Shown here in pieces: positions 3,815-9,483 of a DNA stretch of 25,588 nucleotides. Origin of the DNA: a virus; the IMG/VR virus record IMGVR_UViG_3300021093_003595, positions 1-25,588 of that record; one strand, given 5' to 3'. Made by a program: the position numbers and the translations under genes. Each line of letters begins with the position of its first letter. The stretch's first letter is position 1. The notes beneath the pieces are model-generated. The model worked only from the letters and a program-made list of their open reading frames with translations. It did not search any database and was not told the origin of the DNA.

Positions 3815-3822
3815 TATTTATT
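3815..3822 (-). promoter_or_regulatory. T4-like late promoter (AATAAATA)
   Basis: The minus strand reads AATAAATA, one base from the T4 late -10 consensus TATAAATA. It lies 21 bases upstream of the ATG at 3793, leaving a short leader that contains the GGAG ribosome site. The motif overlaps the 3' end of the upstream gene. Confidence 0.65.
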
Positions 3823-4222
3823 TTCTTTTGATAGCCCCGCCACCAAAAATATTACCCTTCATATCCAGTGCATTTTTTGCAGTCCCATATTTACTCTTAG
3901 GTTGTGTGACCTTGGGCTGCGGAGGCGCTTTGGTACCAGATTTTCCTGGACTTCCTATATAGGATTTTTTTCCTCTAGCAGGACCGGGGCTTATGTGAGG
4001 ATTTTCTATAGATCCTATCATGCCCGCTGATGTGGCACCTGGTGTTGCAGTTTCAGCAACGTTGCTATCATGGCCTTTTGATTTACGTTGTTCCATAGGC
4101 TTTACAGTTGCCAATTTTTCTTTAGCCTTGGTAAAGTCTTTGGTAGGATCTTTGGCCTTTTTGTTATGTTTTACAGCCTTGACGCCCTTTTTAAATTCAA
4201 CTAGAATTTCTCTAATTTTCAT
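3818..4222 (-). CDS. Small basic protein with capsid-targeting-like N-terminus
   Basis: This 134-residue, strongly basic (Lys-rich) protein is mostly Gly/Pro/Ser low complexity with no recognisable domain. It begins MKIREILVE then Phe. This resembles the T4 capsid-targeting sequence of internal proteins (MKTYQEFIAE in IPI and IPIII), with L7-V8-E9 in the place of the gp21 cleavage site. The basic composition suits a DNA-associated internal head protein, but that is inference. The ATG follows the endolysin stop by two bases. Confidence 0.65.
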   Translation of the reverse strand: MKIREILVEFKKGVKAVKHNKKAKDPTKDFTKAKEKLATVKPMEQRKSKGHDSNVAETATPGATSAGMIGSIENPHISPGPARGKKSYIGSPGKSGTKAPPQPKVTQPKSKYGTAKNALDMKGNIFGGGAIKRK

Positions 4223-4961: not shown

Positions 4962-5819
4962 TTATTTGTTTCTTCCAGACTTCATATTAGCGCACCAGTG
5001 ATACATCTTGGCCCTTTCGCCTGATGCATTTTTTGCTTTAGCTCTAAGATCAGTGACAGATCCATTACAACTGGCACCACTACGTTTAACACGGCCCGGG
5101 CGACTCTTGCCTTTGACTTTGCCGTCAGCAAAGTTTTCACTTACAAAAGGTTCGCCAACTAATTTAATTTTCATCTTAGCTAATGCGTATTTTAAAGCGG
5201 CAAGAGCGCCATATTTTCCTTTTATTTCTTTATACCTGTCCTTGTATTCAGGATAGTCTTGAAAGAATTTTATCAATTCCATTACAGCAATATTTCCATC
5301 ATAGGCTGCTTCACCTACACCGCCGCCGTCGCCGCCGCCCTCGCCACTGCCACTGTCTCCACTATATCCTGGATAAAAGCCATAAAATCCATAAGGTCCT
5401 GGGCCATATACCGGCCGTTTACTTAGACGTTTCTTCTTTTTTTCTTCGTCTACTTTTCTCTGATCAGATTTTATGTTTTCCGCTGCTTTTTTTGCCTGTT
5501 TAGTAGCGGTCGCATACATCACTGCTTCGCCACTGTTTCCGTATCGTTTTTCAAAATCGCCTTTGTTTTTCTTCATGCTCTTGACGATCTCTTCTCTTTT
5601 TTTCATCTCGGGCTTAGTAAGCTCTCGCTCTGGTATCATTTCTTTATTACCGAGATCTTGGCCTAATTCTACAACTGGTAACTCTGACTCATCTACTGTT
5701 TCATTCTTCTTGCGTCCTTGGCAATGAGCACGTTGACTGAATCCTTTGGGATTAGAGCAATTGATACTGCTTTTATATTTCTTGCTCCATTTTTCTAAAA
5801 TAAATTCTTGTGCTCTCAT
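4962..5819 (-). CDS. Basic phage protein with capsid-targeting-like N-terminus
   Basis: This 285-residue protein begins MRAQEFILE then Lys; I7-L8-E9 fits a T4 gp21-type cleavage site, and the start resembles the T4 capsid-targeting peptide. After it come a Cys/His segment (SINCSNPKGFSQRAHC), a charged Lys/Glu linker, a Gly-rich stretch near 150-170, a helical segment and a basic C-terminus with KRSGASCNGSVTDLRAKAK and MYHWCANMK. I recall both Cys-containing signatures from marine phage proteins of unknown function. The ATG overlaps the preceding stop (ATGA). No enzymatic motif is seen. A packaged DNA-binding internal protein is my best guess. Confidence 0.65.
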   Translation of the reverse strand: MRAQEFILEKWSKKYKSSINCSNPKGFSQRAHCQGRKKNETVDESELPVVELGQDLGNKEMIPERELTKPEMKKREEIVKSMKKNKGDFEKRYGNSGEAVMYATATKQAKKAAENIKSDQRKVDEEKKKKRLSKRPVYGPGPYGFYGFYPGYSGDSGSGEGGGDGGGVGEAAYDGNIAVMELIKFFQDYPEYKDRYKEIKGKYGALAALKYALAKMKIKLVGEPFVSENFADGKVKGKSRPGRVKRSGASCNGSVTDLRAKAKNASGERAKMYHWCANMKSGRNK

Positions 5820-6193
5820 ATGCCGTACTTATTCCTTCTAGGACTAGCTATAGGACTGATTTTATTTACAGTTTCTAATTCTTCACTGTTTAGATCGCCA
5901 TGATTAAGATCTTTATATTTTGCACCAACTACTTTATAACCTTGTTTTAACATGTCTTGTTCTATTTTTGTATAGGGAAAAGCCAATTTCTTTTTTCCAA
6001 ACCAAGATTTAGGATCCATCTCTATAGGAGTTTTGCCATCCGCACAGGCCAGTGCCAGGCTAAGACGATATTCTGTGTAATCACCACTGGCACGTTCTCC
6101 GTCCTTGTAAGTGTTTACGCCGCGACTAGACTGTTGATGCGTTGGATTTAGTTTTCCTGCACGTACTTCTGATAGTATTTCTCGCAGTTTCAC
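5816..6193 (-). CDS. Conserved phage protein, GTG start, capsid-targeting-like N-terminus
   Basis: This 125-residue protein begins at a GTG that overlaps the upstream stop (GTGA). Its N-terminus MKLREILSE then Val matches the pattern of the neighbouring packaged-protein candidates, with L7-S8-E9 as the possible cleavage site. The rest contains GKLNPTHQQSSRG, a conserved-looking ADGKTPIEMDPKSWFGKK segment and YTKIEQDMLKQGYK. I recall relatives in marine phages without known function. The GTG is accepted because only it gives the leader pattern and the exact operon overlap. Confidence 0.65.
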   Translation of the reverse strand: MKLREILSEVRAGKLNPTHQQSSRGVNTYKDGERASGDYTEYRLSLALACADGKTPIEMDPKSWFGKKKLAFPYTKIEQDMLKQGYKVVGAKYKDLNHGDLNSEELETVNKISPIASPRRNKYGI

Positions 6194-6411
6194 TTCTTAC
6201 GTCCCCTAAAGTGGCTGTTGACACTGCCGGTCATATACGGTAAGGTAAACCATAATTTAAACCAATCCTTGTCACCTGGCTTTAATCCAAGGTCACGTTC
6301 TTTCTTGCGTATGGCAGCGGCAGTGTGTGTGATGTTTTCTATATTTACCGGTTTGAAACCTTGAAAGTTGTTTACACCTGCTAGACGTTTTATTTGTTCT
6401 AATTCGTCCAT
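6190..6411 (-). CDS. Small conserved phage protein
   Basis: This 73-residue protein begins MDELEQIKRLAGV and has a C-terminal signature GLKPGDKDWFKLWFTLPYMTG, which I recall from small proteins of marine myophages. It has no cleavage-type leader, no membrane segment and no catalytic motif. Its ATG overlaps the upstream stop by one base and its stop overlaps the next GTG, so it belongs to a tightly coupled translation unit. Function is unknown. Confidence 0.65.
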   Translation of the reverse strand: MDELEQIKRLAGVNNFQGFKPVNIENITHTAAAIRKKERDLGLKPGDKDWFKLWFTLPYMTGSVNSHFRGRKK

Positions 6412-7115
6412 TATTTGCCTTTCCTAGCAGTTTTGGCAGTAGCCATTTGTTGCATACGCTGTTTGGCCTTGTTCATAAGGTCCATAACTTCATCATCACT
6501 GAGTGCTGGGCTCATAGCGTCACGCCAGATAGTAAAAGGTAATTGCTCATCTGGAATTGCATCATATTCCGGATGAGACTTTCTAAAATTCTCTAAATCT
6601 GTAAGAACCTGTCGCATGGGAGTTGCTCTTGGTCCTTCTTCACTGCTGCTTGGATCTTTTGTTTCCTGTCTACTAATAACTTTTAAGCTATCAAAGTCAA
6701 AGGCAATTTCTCCTTTTTTATTTGGTTTGCCGTTATAGGCATTTAAATATTGAAATGCAGTCTTTTGATCTGCTCCAACAATTACCACGGCATTGCGGTA
6801 GCCTTGATTATTAAGATTAGTTAACACACGGGTGAGATCCGGCAATTCATCTGTGGCAGTTTGAAATACATTGCCTTTTTCTGGGAAGACCTTACGATAT
6901 ATGGCTAATTTTTCTTCTGGCTGTAACGGGTCATCCGGACCGTATGTTCTACTTACAACAAAATACGGATCCCCTTCTAATTCTTCAGCATGTGTAATCA
7001 CACTACTTGCCAACATCATGTGGCCTTTATGTCCCATGCCTCGACCCCAACCCACTACTGCGGTAGTGCTTTTACCTGTGCGTTCTATCGCCTCAAATAA
7101 TTGACGTAGTAGCAT
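6411..7115 (-). CDS. HxGH nucleotidyltransferase-like protein (cytidylyltransferase fold)
   Basis: This 234-residue protein has GWGRGMGHKGH at about residues 22-32. It is a GR..HxGH nucleotide-binding motif (H29, H32) typical of the nucleotidyltransferase alpha/beta phosphodiesterase superfamily, which moves a nucleotide onto a phosphorylated substrate. A VVIVGADQKTAF segment and a late ATPMRQVL segment (compare ISxTxxR) fit that fold. The substrate is unknown. The start MLLRQLFE then Ala contains L6-F7-E8, a possible gp21-type cleavage site. It is one base downstream of the ligase-like gene and third in a coupled trio of nucleotide-transfer-like genes. Confidence 0.7.
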   Translation of the reverse strand: MLLRQLFEAIERTGKSTTAVVGWGRGMGHKGHMMLASSVITHAEELEGDPYFVVSRTYGPDDPLQPEEKLAIYRKVFPEKGNVFQTATDELPDLTRVLTNLNNQGYRNAVVIVGADQKTAFQYLNAYNGKPNKKGEIAFDFDSLKVISRQETKDPSSSEEGPRATPMRQVLTDLENFRKSHPEYDAIPDEQLPFTIWRDAMSPALSDDEVMDLMNKAKQRMQQMATAKTARKGK

Positions 7116-7116
7116 A

Positions 7117-8280
7117 TTAATCTTTCCTCGGTGCCCAGTCTGCTTGACTAATGGCCTTTACAAATTGACCTGTGTCAGGATCTTTGTATACATAACCTTC
7201 CGGCTTAGTCTGTCTAATACCACTGTGCGTGCCGCTACTGGCTCTTTGATACATGTCTAATTTTGCCACGCTGAGCTTTTCCACTGCTGATAAAATAGCA
7301 TCCAATCCCGGATCACTGATAATTTTTTTGGCCTGCGCAGCACTGAGATTTTGATTAGCCCAGTCTAAGAACTTTTCTTTTACACCTGCTACACGTAAAT
7401 TTTGATTATAAAACTTGTATAAGACCTCACCAACTTTACTTAATCCTGGTTTAGGGGATAAAAATGCGTCTATCAAATTACTATTCGTAGTAATGAAAGA
7501 TTCAGCATCATCCACTAGAGATTCATCTATACCTGGTGCAGACTCAACATAGACTGTGCCTTGTACAATAGTATCATTTGTGGAAAGCTCCTCGGGGTTC
7601 GGATATCTTTTTTCGTCTGAACTTCCTAAACTTTCATAATATCCCGTAGCTGCGACCATTACCTTGGCTGTTTTTATACGTCTACCTAAGTCACTGTCTT
7701 TGCCTATGTAGAATCCTGTTATATTAGGAGTAAATCCATATTCTCCAGTTTCTTTATTGTATACTGGTTCAGCTGTTTTACCGTTTGGTTTAGTGCCCGG
7801 ATAGAATAGTAAACCACCTTCTAAGAAACCTTGTTCAGGACTAGCATCCTCAAAGTATGACCACAAATTCGCTATTTGTTTCGCATACTGTCTGCGTTGT
7901 GTCTCGCGTTCTGGATCTGGTTTTCCGGTGCCTAATAAAAATGCATTTACTTCTTTTGGATTTGTTGGCGCTGTTTTCACGCCATTGTCTAGTTGTGTTT
8001 TACCACGCTTTAGGTATTCCCAAGCATTTTTTGGTATAAGATAAAACACTCCGTCTTGCTTACCCCAATAAACTACAGGACTACCATCCCATTTAATTTC
8101 ATTTTGACCTTTTGACTGCGTAGACATGTCCTTGATAATTCTAACGGCCTGTAAACCAGATGCCGCACCAGGATTAATTCCTTTACTTGGTATACCAGTA
8201 AAGATTAAATCTTCTACGTGCTGATATTTGCGACCTACAGTAGGAGAGGCTACCTCAATGATAAATTCACGGGCCCTCAT
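7117..8280 (-). CDS. Ligase/nucleotidyltransferase-like phage protein (KxDG motif; DUF6267-type?)
   Basis: This 387-residue protein has EIKWDGSPVVYWG at about 61-73. K63-x-D65-G66 looks like the KxDG adenylation motif of the ATP-dependent DNA/RNA ligase superfamily, and FLEGGLLFYPG near 152-162 resembles the later DGEL-type motif. I recall phage DUF6267 proteins with a similar KWDGSP site, but the assignment is from memory and ligase activity is not proven. The start MRAREFIIE then Val is the best local match to the T4 capsid-targeting peptide, with I7-I8-E9 as the cleavage site. The ATG overlaps the upstream stop (ATGA). It sits between two other nucleotidyltransferase-like genes. Confidence 0.65.
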   Translation of the reverse strand: MRAREFIIEVASPTVGRKYQHVEDLIFTGIPSKGINPGAASGLQAVRIIKDMSTQSKGQNEIKWDGSPVVYWGKQDGVFYLIPKNAWEYLKRGKTQLDNGVKTAPTNPKEVNAFLLGTGKPDPERETQRRQYAKQIANLWSYFEDASPEQGFLEGGLLFYPGTKPNGKTAEPVYNKETGEYGFTPNITGFYIGKDSDLGRRIKTAKVMVAATGYYESLGSSDEKRYPNPEELSTNDTIVQGTVYVESAPGIDESLVDDAESFITTNSNLIDAFLSPKPGLSKVGEVLYKFYNQNLRVAGVKEKFLDWANQNLSAAQAKKIISDPGLDAILSAVEKLSVAKLDMYQRASSGTHSGIRQTKPEGYVYKDPDTGQFVKAISQADWAPRKD

Positions 8281-9146
8281 TTAATGATAGTCCTTATCTG
8301 TGCGAACCATTGCGGAGTTCCTACGCGATAATGTTCTTTCAATTTATATTCTGTGCCGTATTTCTCTAATCCTTGATTGACTTTTTCTATAACAGAATTA
8401 TATTTGTCAGGATGACTTTGTCTAAATTTTGACAGTATTGTGTTAATGTTATCTAAATCACTGGCATTGCCGTCGAACAGTATTTCCGCAATTTCATTTG
8501 GATCTTTTGTAACAACTTCACCTGTTGCTCGATCAAGTAAGCCGTTTTTGTAACTCCAACTAAGACCCTGAGGATGTTTTGTGCTTACTATCACACGCCC
8601 TATTTCAGTAAGTAATATATGGCGATATGAACCTTTTGCACGTAACTTTTTAGGGGTGTCGGGAGAGTTTGGTTCGCCTCTGCGACTCCAGCGCATGAAC
8701 TTACCTTGATTCGGCTCGGAAATATCTAAATCTACCTGTAACCATTCATTGGTGTTTGGTATCGGCGCACACGCAGTAAGCCCGTCTCCTGCTATTTTAA
8801 AATAACGTTCAAGTTGATTTATTCGATCTCGCTTTTCAACAAATCTATATCCAGCAGCAGTTAATTTTTGTCCTAAATATTCTCTAAATTCATCTTGCGC
8901 TTCTTTAGGAGTTTGTATTTTATCACTTGGTGCCACAAAGTCTAACGGATCTATTACAGTGTCTGCATCCCCTGTACTGGCTCCAGGATATATGATGCTG
9001 CCGGCGGCAAATTTTTCTAAATTTATACCAATTTCTTCGCCAAGGCTTTTAAGTGTGGCCATGGCTTCTTCGCTGGTTGCATCCTGTTTTGTAGCAGGAG
9101 TACCATCGGCATATTTAAATTCATTTCCACCTTCAACTAATATCAT
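8277..9146 (-). CDS. Polymerase-beta-type nucleotidyltransferase-like protein
   Basis: This 289-residue protein has G49-S50, nine residues, then D60-A61-D62, followed by D66. That is the hGS-x9-DhD metal-binding signature of the polymerase-beta nucleotidyltransferase superfamily, which includes poly(A) and CCA polymerases and antitoxin-type enzymes. The ASTGDADTVIDPLDF stretch carries it. The substrate is unknown. The protein starts MILVE then GG, so L3-V4-E5 could be a very short cleavage leader; no other in-frame start exists upstream before a stop. It overlaps the upstream gene by 14 bp and the ligase-like gene by 4 bp. Confidence 0.7.
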   Translation of the reverse strand: MILVEGGNEFKYADGTPATKQDATSEEAMATLKSLGEEIGINLEKFAAGSIIYPGASTGDADTVIDPLDFVAPSDKIQTPKEAQDEFREYLGQKLTAAGYRFVEKRDRINQLERYFKIAGDGLTACAPIPNTNEWLQVDLDISEPNQGKFMRWSRRGEPNSPDTPKKLRAKGSYRHILLTEIGRVIVSTKHPQGLSWSYKNGLLDRATGEVVTKDPNEIAEILFDGNASDLDNINTILSKFRQSHPDKYNSVIEKVNQGLEKYGTEYKLKEHYRVGTPQWFAQIRTIIK

Positions 9147-9483
9147 TATACACGCCCTCTTCTATATTTTTGATTTCTTCTCGATATAGATTTTCGCATA
9201 TATCCATTACTAACCCTTCTTCTAGATCAGTGGGTAAATTAGGCGTATCTTTGTAAGATTCTTTGTACACATCATAGGCGTGTTTTACCAGTGCTTCAAA
9301 TGCCTTAGCTGTGAACTTGACCTTCTTTTCTTTAGCTTCTTTTAACCGAATTATAAAAGGAAAATAATGCTTTCTATAAAACTGTGGGTCATTGTTGATA
9401 AAACAACGTAAATCATCTCCTAGATCAAAGTCTGGAGCGAATGCTTCTTCTGAATTGTGCCCAAATATCTCAAAAATTTTCAT
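9133..9483 (-). CDS. Conserved small acidic phage protein
   Basis: This 116-residue protein begins MKIFEIFG, has an acidic segment, then NDPQFYRKHYFPFI near 31-44 and a helical acidic C-terminus. I recall the NDPQFYR..YFP pattern from marine T4-like phages, with no function attached. The start loosely echoes the capsid-targeting-like leaders of downstream genes but has no convincing (L/I)xE site at residue 9. A late promoter 30 bases upstream makes it the first gene of the transcription unit that runs on through the nucleotidyltransferase trio. Confidence 0.65.
   Translation of the reverse strand: MKIFEIFGHNSEEAFAPDFDLGDDLRCFINNDPQFYRKHYFPFIIRLKEAKEKKVKFTAKAFEALVKHAYDVYKESYKDTPNLPTDLEEGLVMDICENLYREEIKNIEEGVYNDIS

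Follow-up and report, generated by a model that had tools for sequence, protein, structure and literature searches.

Putatively packaged polymerase-like, ligase-like and adenylyltransferase-like proteins in T4-like water phages: a possible end-repair set

Introduction

African swine fever virus carries a gap-repair pair made up of a family X DNA polymerase and a ligase. A coliphage pair of this type is found in Escherichia phage vB_EcoM_IME392 (L164, 2132-4898), where the gene for a family X polymerase immediately precedes that for a DNA ligase. Jumbo phages encode repair pairs of RlaP, a Pol-beta nucleotidyltransferase, and an ATP-grasp RNA ligase (PMC7824862). Other described systems concern proteins delivered with phage DNA: T4 Alt and the T4 internal proteins have a short N-terminal leader, are cleaved at [LI]xE, packaged into the head and injected (PMC3012670), and the phage polyvalent proteins, with several enzymatic domains each, are thought to be injected with the DNA (PMC5512222). 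In cyanophages, T4-GC71 (corresponding to DUF6267) and T4-GC190 (a putative cytidylyltransferase) are known, and purified virions of S-SM1 were found to contain the latter (PMC3037559).

Here we describe three consecutive minus-strand genes, A, B and C, on a 25.6-kb viral contig (IMG/VR record IMGVR_UViG_3300021093_003595, 25,588 nucleotides, referred to in full as the window). Like the RlaP pairs, the locus places a Pol-beta nucleotidyltransferase beside a KxDG-type ligase, but A is outside PF10127 by HMM, B is a DUF6267 protein, an HxGH protein is present as third partner, and the gene products, frequently fused, appear to be packaged. It shares a minimal PolX-like polymerase and a ligase partner with the PolX-ligase pairs, but differs in having no PolX Pfam match in A, no OB domain in B, an additional C and T4-type leaders. 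The T4 cargo resembles the trio in leader, cleavage motif and presumed route, whereas its known examples are an ADP-ribosyltransferase and inhibitors, with no polymerase/ligase/adenylyltransferase set and no polyprotein; the fusions described below differ from polyvalent proteins in domain set and in having prohead-protease-like sites at their boundaries. T4-GC71 and T4-GC190 are homologues of B and C respectively, but the cyanophages have no A upstream of B and their C retains a canonical GRFxPPxxGH motif. Our literature search found no paper describing the trio and none naming DUF6267.

Results

A and B share 4 nt (ATGA), and a single base lies between B and C (Table 1). Gene D, immediately upstream, probably belongs to the same operon, and a ClpB-like ATPase, PhoH and a clamp loader are also encoded in the window.

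Table 1. Coordinates of genes, predicted motifs and putative leaders in the window
Feature	Position	Strand	Remark
Gene A	8277-9146	(-)	289 aa
Gene B	7117-8280	(-)	387 aa
Gene C	6411-7115	(-)	234 aa
Gene D	9133-9483	(-)	116 aa, upstream of A; without known family; kept in 55/59 relatives
A leader MILVE, putative prohead-protease site before GGN	9132-9146	(-)	94% of A homologues match
A catalytic motif GS49-50-x9-D60-A-D62	8961-9002	(-)	D60, D62 unchanged in all 44 relatives
A third catalytic Asp D139 (QVD)	8730-8732	(-)	invariant
B leader MRAREFIIE, putative cleavage site before VAS	8254-8280	(-)	leader motif statistics
B motif I K63-W-D-G66, predicted AMP-accepting lysine	8083-8094	(-)	invariant
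B motif IV E361-G362	7195-7200	(-)	invariant in wide alignment
B motif V K375	7156-7158	(-)	invariant
C leader MLLRQLFE, putative cleavage site before AIE	7092-7115	(-)	leader motif statistics
C motif H29-K-G-H32	7020-7031	(-)	conserved in relatives
C motif T165-P-M-R168 (ISxTxxR position)	6612-6623	(-)	nearly invariant in near relatives

The aspartates D60, D62 and D139 of protein A, which correspond to the acidic triad of the Pol-beta superfamily, are 100% invariant across diverse relatives (33 in our first alignment, later enlarged to 44). In searches with an AF2 model of A (pLDDT 86.5; residues 1-6 below 50), the best VIA-align match was Pol lambda (4k4i, Z 10.6), with AsfvPolX at Z 10.3, and every one of the best 50 matches was to Pol lambda, mu, beta, TdT or AsfvPolX, at Z 10.0-10.6 and usually with some 175-190 residues aligned. 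Foldseek agreed on family X (probability up to 1.00, E 2e-3) and on its own gave no match at E<=0.001; the fold calls for A and B were thus decided by VIA-align. Alignment with hhalign to eight family X polymerases (E=2.6e-4, probability 42%) spanned the GS..D.D stretch, the third Asp and a C-terminal GLxLNEYGL region. The Pfam palm and thumb models of family X, PF14792 and PF14791, did not match A at E<=10 in the window, and profile searches of PDB sequences returned no real relative. Because no PolX family of Pfam is matched, we regard A as PolX-like in fold and not as a certified member of the family: the model predicts a minimal Pol-beta-superfamily nucleotidyltransferase with a PolX-like palm and a thumb-like part, whose activity is inferred. 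Identification of A as RlaP was rejected, since PF10127 matched 0/33 A homologues at E<=0.5 and nothing in the records of 5 relatives. Matches of one A homologue to PADLOC oligonucleotide cyclases (E 1.8e-4) were taken as a shared Pol-beta superfamily signal only.

Protein B matches Pfam DUF6267 (PF19782; E=2e-8, 34.5 bits against a gathering cut-off of 27), as do 31/31 of its homologues. Homologues of DUF6267 are spread over 469 phage records, most of them from cyanophages, and are chiefly annotated as hypothetical; a search of a genome collection covering 84,980 species confirmed no relative of B. Motifs I (KxDG), IV (EG) and V (K) are invariant in 14 sequences with identities down to 20%. 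The AF2 model of B (pLDDT 88.8; residues 1-16 below 50) found only RNA and DNA ligases among its best 50 VIA-align matches, led by Naegleria Rnl (Z 6.8 over 178 residues, rmsd 4.5) and including TbREL1 (6.5), Trl1 (5.8) and T4 Rnl1 (5.7). The best Z falls short of the cautionary value of 8, but the match list is uniform and the sequence motifs agree with it. Foldseek alone gave nothing for B at E<=0.001, no true relative emerged when PDB sequences were searched with profiles, and hhalign against T4 Rnl2 was unsuccessful. A C-terminal OB domain with motif VI is absent, the chain ending 12 residues after K375, and the AF2 secondary structure has only a helical insert and no OB domain. On this modelled fold B is predicted to be a lysine-adenylylating member of the ligase superfamily, with Lys-AMP formation inferred, which would give a ligase-superfamily assignment to a family present in hundreds of cyanophage records without a function.

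Protein C belongs, on profile evidence, to the (H/T)xGH nucleotidylyltransferases of the phage cytidyltransferase family (phrog_3041, E=3e-19; phrog_395, 1.8e-9), and is related to NMN adenylyltransferases; its exact substrate is unknown. The window protein scores 13 bits against Pfam CTP_transf_like, under the cut-off of 21, and two fused homologues pass it (L190, 25.9 bits; L193, 21.4 bits). Its best named neighbours, all weak, are NMN/NaMN, FMN and phosphopantetheine adenylyltransferases; PDB-sequence profile searches likewise gave only weak NaMN/FMN adenylyltransferase matches. Distant relatives have canonical GSFKPFHRGH and ISGTxxR motifs, whereas the clade of the window has GRGMGHKGH and RATPMR; the arginine of the second motif is invariant as far as the cyanophage proteins.

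A first-pass annotation, made from the sequence alone, had proposed consecutive genes, overlapping or one base apart, for a polymerase-beta-type nucleotidyltransferase with GS-x9-DAD, a ligase-superfamily-like protein with KWDG at 63-66 and an HxGH nucleotidyltransferase. The layout and motif positions are exact and all three motifs are conserved in relatives beyond chance; the enzyme classes also hold, those of A and B by AF2 model and structure search (with invariant KWDG, EG and K motifs in B), and that of C by profile membership, with no structure model. That annotation would have been refuted by folds lacking the nucleotidyltransferase or ligase cores, or by unlinked genes, and neither was found: the trio stays together in relatives and is even naturally fused. 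Loci were gathered by searches with A, B and C each and reduced to 62 independent clusters of B. A adjoins B in 54/61 independent relatives, 23 of these 61 having A and B fused, and C is adjacent in 59/60. About half of the loci came through the C query, so the figure for C is biased upwards; A served as query for only eight.

Uninterrupted A-B-C fusions of 880-988 residues occur in a second lineage (L188-L193, L196 and L197). In a third lineage (L204-L225) a 992-aa fusion joins B to two Pol-beta-like domains (B-A'-A''), with LxE-type sites at both boundaries. The A-B-C fusion frame of one contig (L158) is broken by a single TGA (2943-2945); this was ruled out as evidence of recoding, as intact fusions exist in other contigs. 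In some relatives B and C occur but A does not (L029, L038, L042, L069 and L074). B and C are also neighbours in the Kyanoviridae isolates S-SM1, Syn19, P-SSM7, S-RSM4, S-SZBM1 and S-CAM9, are separated by one or two genes in Melnitz and HTVC008M and by more in S-CRM01, and are not adjacent in P-SSM2 and S-SM2. In Pelagibacter phage HTVC008M a Zeta-toxin/AAA_33-like kinase gene lies between them (L160, 8333-8995). The slot upstream of B holds a different protein, unrelated to A, in each isolated Kyanoviridae phage. From motifs read by eye, several of these may be PD-(D/E)XK nucleases, a reading that found no backing in Pfam, in PHROG function labels or in a PDB search. Since A is absent from some relatives and the cyanophage slot holds other proteins, B and C form the core, with A as one partner among several.

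Each protein of the trio begins with a leader resembling the N-termini of the T4 head proteins gp24 (MAKINELLRE) and gp22 (MLKEQLIAE). The motif [LI]xE[AGSTDNV] occurs within the first 16 residues in 94% of A, 74% of B and 48% of C homologues, compared with 13% for neighbouring genes and 4% for internal windows. Residues 5-8 of A, E-G-G-N (9122-9134(-)), are about as conserved as the catalytic aspartates; a cut at the predicted site would leave a Gly-Gly-Asn N-terminus, cleavage itself being inferred. Large relatives encode a gp21-type prohead protease and gp23, whose N-terminal region also has an LxE site. The packaging suggested earlier by a possible capsid-targeting cleavage site on all three proteins is strengthened by leader enrichment and by the published proteomics of the C homologue (PMC3037559). 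Packaging of A, B and C into the head is well supported by the leaders, the relatives' protease and the virion presence of that homologue; no virion data for A or B were found in published work, and only the C family has such evidence. The trio is probably loaded into the head and injected with the DNA in T4-like water phages.

The fusions bear on the same point. A-B fusions have a leader before A and none before B, where an E|AA site is kept. Across all fusion types, 35/35 distinct junction windows contain [LIVFM]xE followed by an expected residue (11.9% of random windows), and 21/35 contain a stricter motif (5% of random windows). Many of the junctions share descent, so that the effective number is smaller; several unlike linkers nevertheless have only this site in common. 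Retention of [LIVFM]xE at every junction suggests, on sequence grounds, that the fusions may be polyproteins cut at domain junctions inside the prohead.

Discussion

The joint delivery of a polymerase-like protein, a sealing enzyme and an adenylyltransferase suggests end repair right after injection. Our preferred reading, to which we would give rather less than an even chance, is that A, B and C constitute a virion-packaged, injected kit for nucleic-acid end repair, with catalytic activity, cleavage, substrate and the role of C all inferred. During head assembly the N-terminal leader would draw each protein, or the fused polyprotein, into the prohead, where the T4-type protease would cut after [LI]xE and also part fused domains; the mature enzymes would then enter the host along with the genome. 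B would charge AMP onto K63 and seal 5'-phosphate/3'-OH breaks, after A had put missing nucleotides onto 3' ends, and C, as an HxGH adenylyltransferase, may supply or restore an adenylylated compound by NMN-adenylyltransferase-like chemistry. The likeliest substrate would be incoming phage DNA bearing gaps, nicks or cuts from damage or host defence, at a stage preceding phage gene expression. C, the least explained member of the trio, has no obvious place in DNA sealing, which counts against this proposal.

DNA is slightly favoured over tRNA or RNA as substrate by the family X fold of A, by the position of the cyanophage B-C genes between gp41/mazG and gp61/nrdA, a DNA-replication block, and by a separate ATP-dependent DNA ligase encoded by a large relative, where B is therefore not the sole ligase. 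It is not proven, given that B lacks an OB domain and that its best fold matches are RNA ligases. These same features favour the main rival to DNA end repair, in which A would restore nucleotides at RNA ends and B would reseal tRNAs cut by host anticodon nucleases, as is proposed for the RlaP-RNA ligase pairing of jumbo phages (PMC7824862). We nonetheless consider RNA repair unlikely, though not negligible, as A lacks PF10127 and so is not RlaP by HMM, its fold is nearest to the DNA-filling PolX enzymes, the cyanophage genes sit among those for DNA replication, and the genes flanking the trio in the window showed no kinase or phosphatase partner.

The remaining alternatives take the proteins out of repair altogether. 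Pol-beta nucleotidyltransferases are among the predicted protein-modifying domains of injected polyvalent proteins (PMC5512222), and the slot upstream of B and the C tails are variable in a cargo-like manner, as expected if A, and perhaps C, put nucleotides on host proteins or RNA in an early host takeover; the stable partner is however a ligase-type enzyme, and the C-terminal part of A still has polymerase-like features alignable with family X, so we hold this to be improbable. The first-pass annotation had left the choice between nucleic-acid repair and nucleotidylation of host proteins: end repair fits better and nucleotidylation less well, while the target remains unproven. It is a little more doubtful still that C, as an NMN adenylyltransferase, rebuilds NAD+ drained by host defences with A and B as fellow cargo. 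NAD+ salvage is encoded by phages (PMC9503650) and C-family sequences weakly match NadR/NMN adenylyltransferase (E 1.2e-3) and NadR (E 1.1e-3), but no NadV-like partner was noticed beside C, C is tied to the ligase even through fusion, and the first motif of C is altered in the clade of the window (GRGMGHKGH). That the trio are head or scaffold proteins reusing enzyme folds without catalysis would agree with a C homologue being a virion component; we regard it as very unlikely, the catalytic residues of A, B and C being among their most conserved positions.

Returning to end repair, we put forward more hesitantly the wider proposal that a large group of T4-like phages packages a PolX-type polymerase, a DUF6267 ligase and an HxGH adenylyltransferase, in some cases as a polyprotein cut by the prohead protease, for repair in the host before phage gene expression. 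If true, the phage capsid would deliver a ready-made nucleic-acid repair system, and the prohead protease would provide an example of the splitting of a multi-enzyme cargo polyprotein; the earlier report of a cytidylyltransferase in cyanophage virions would gain a partner set and a testable role.

Some C homologues (L029, L043, L077 and L039) are extended at the C-terminus by long tails containing deaminase, LysM, VanY or peptidoglycan-binding domains. Leaders of the same type as those of the trio also begin three further minus-strand genes of the window, MKIREILVE at 3821-4222(-), MRAQEFILE at 4965-5819(-) and MKLREILSE at 5816-6193(-), whose products are perhaps co-packaged cargo.
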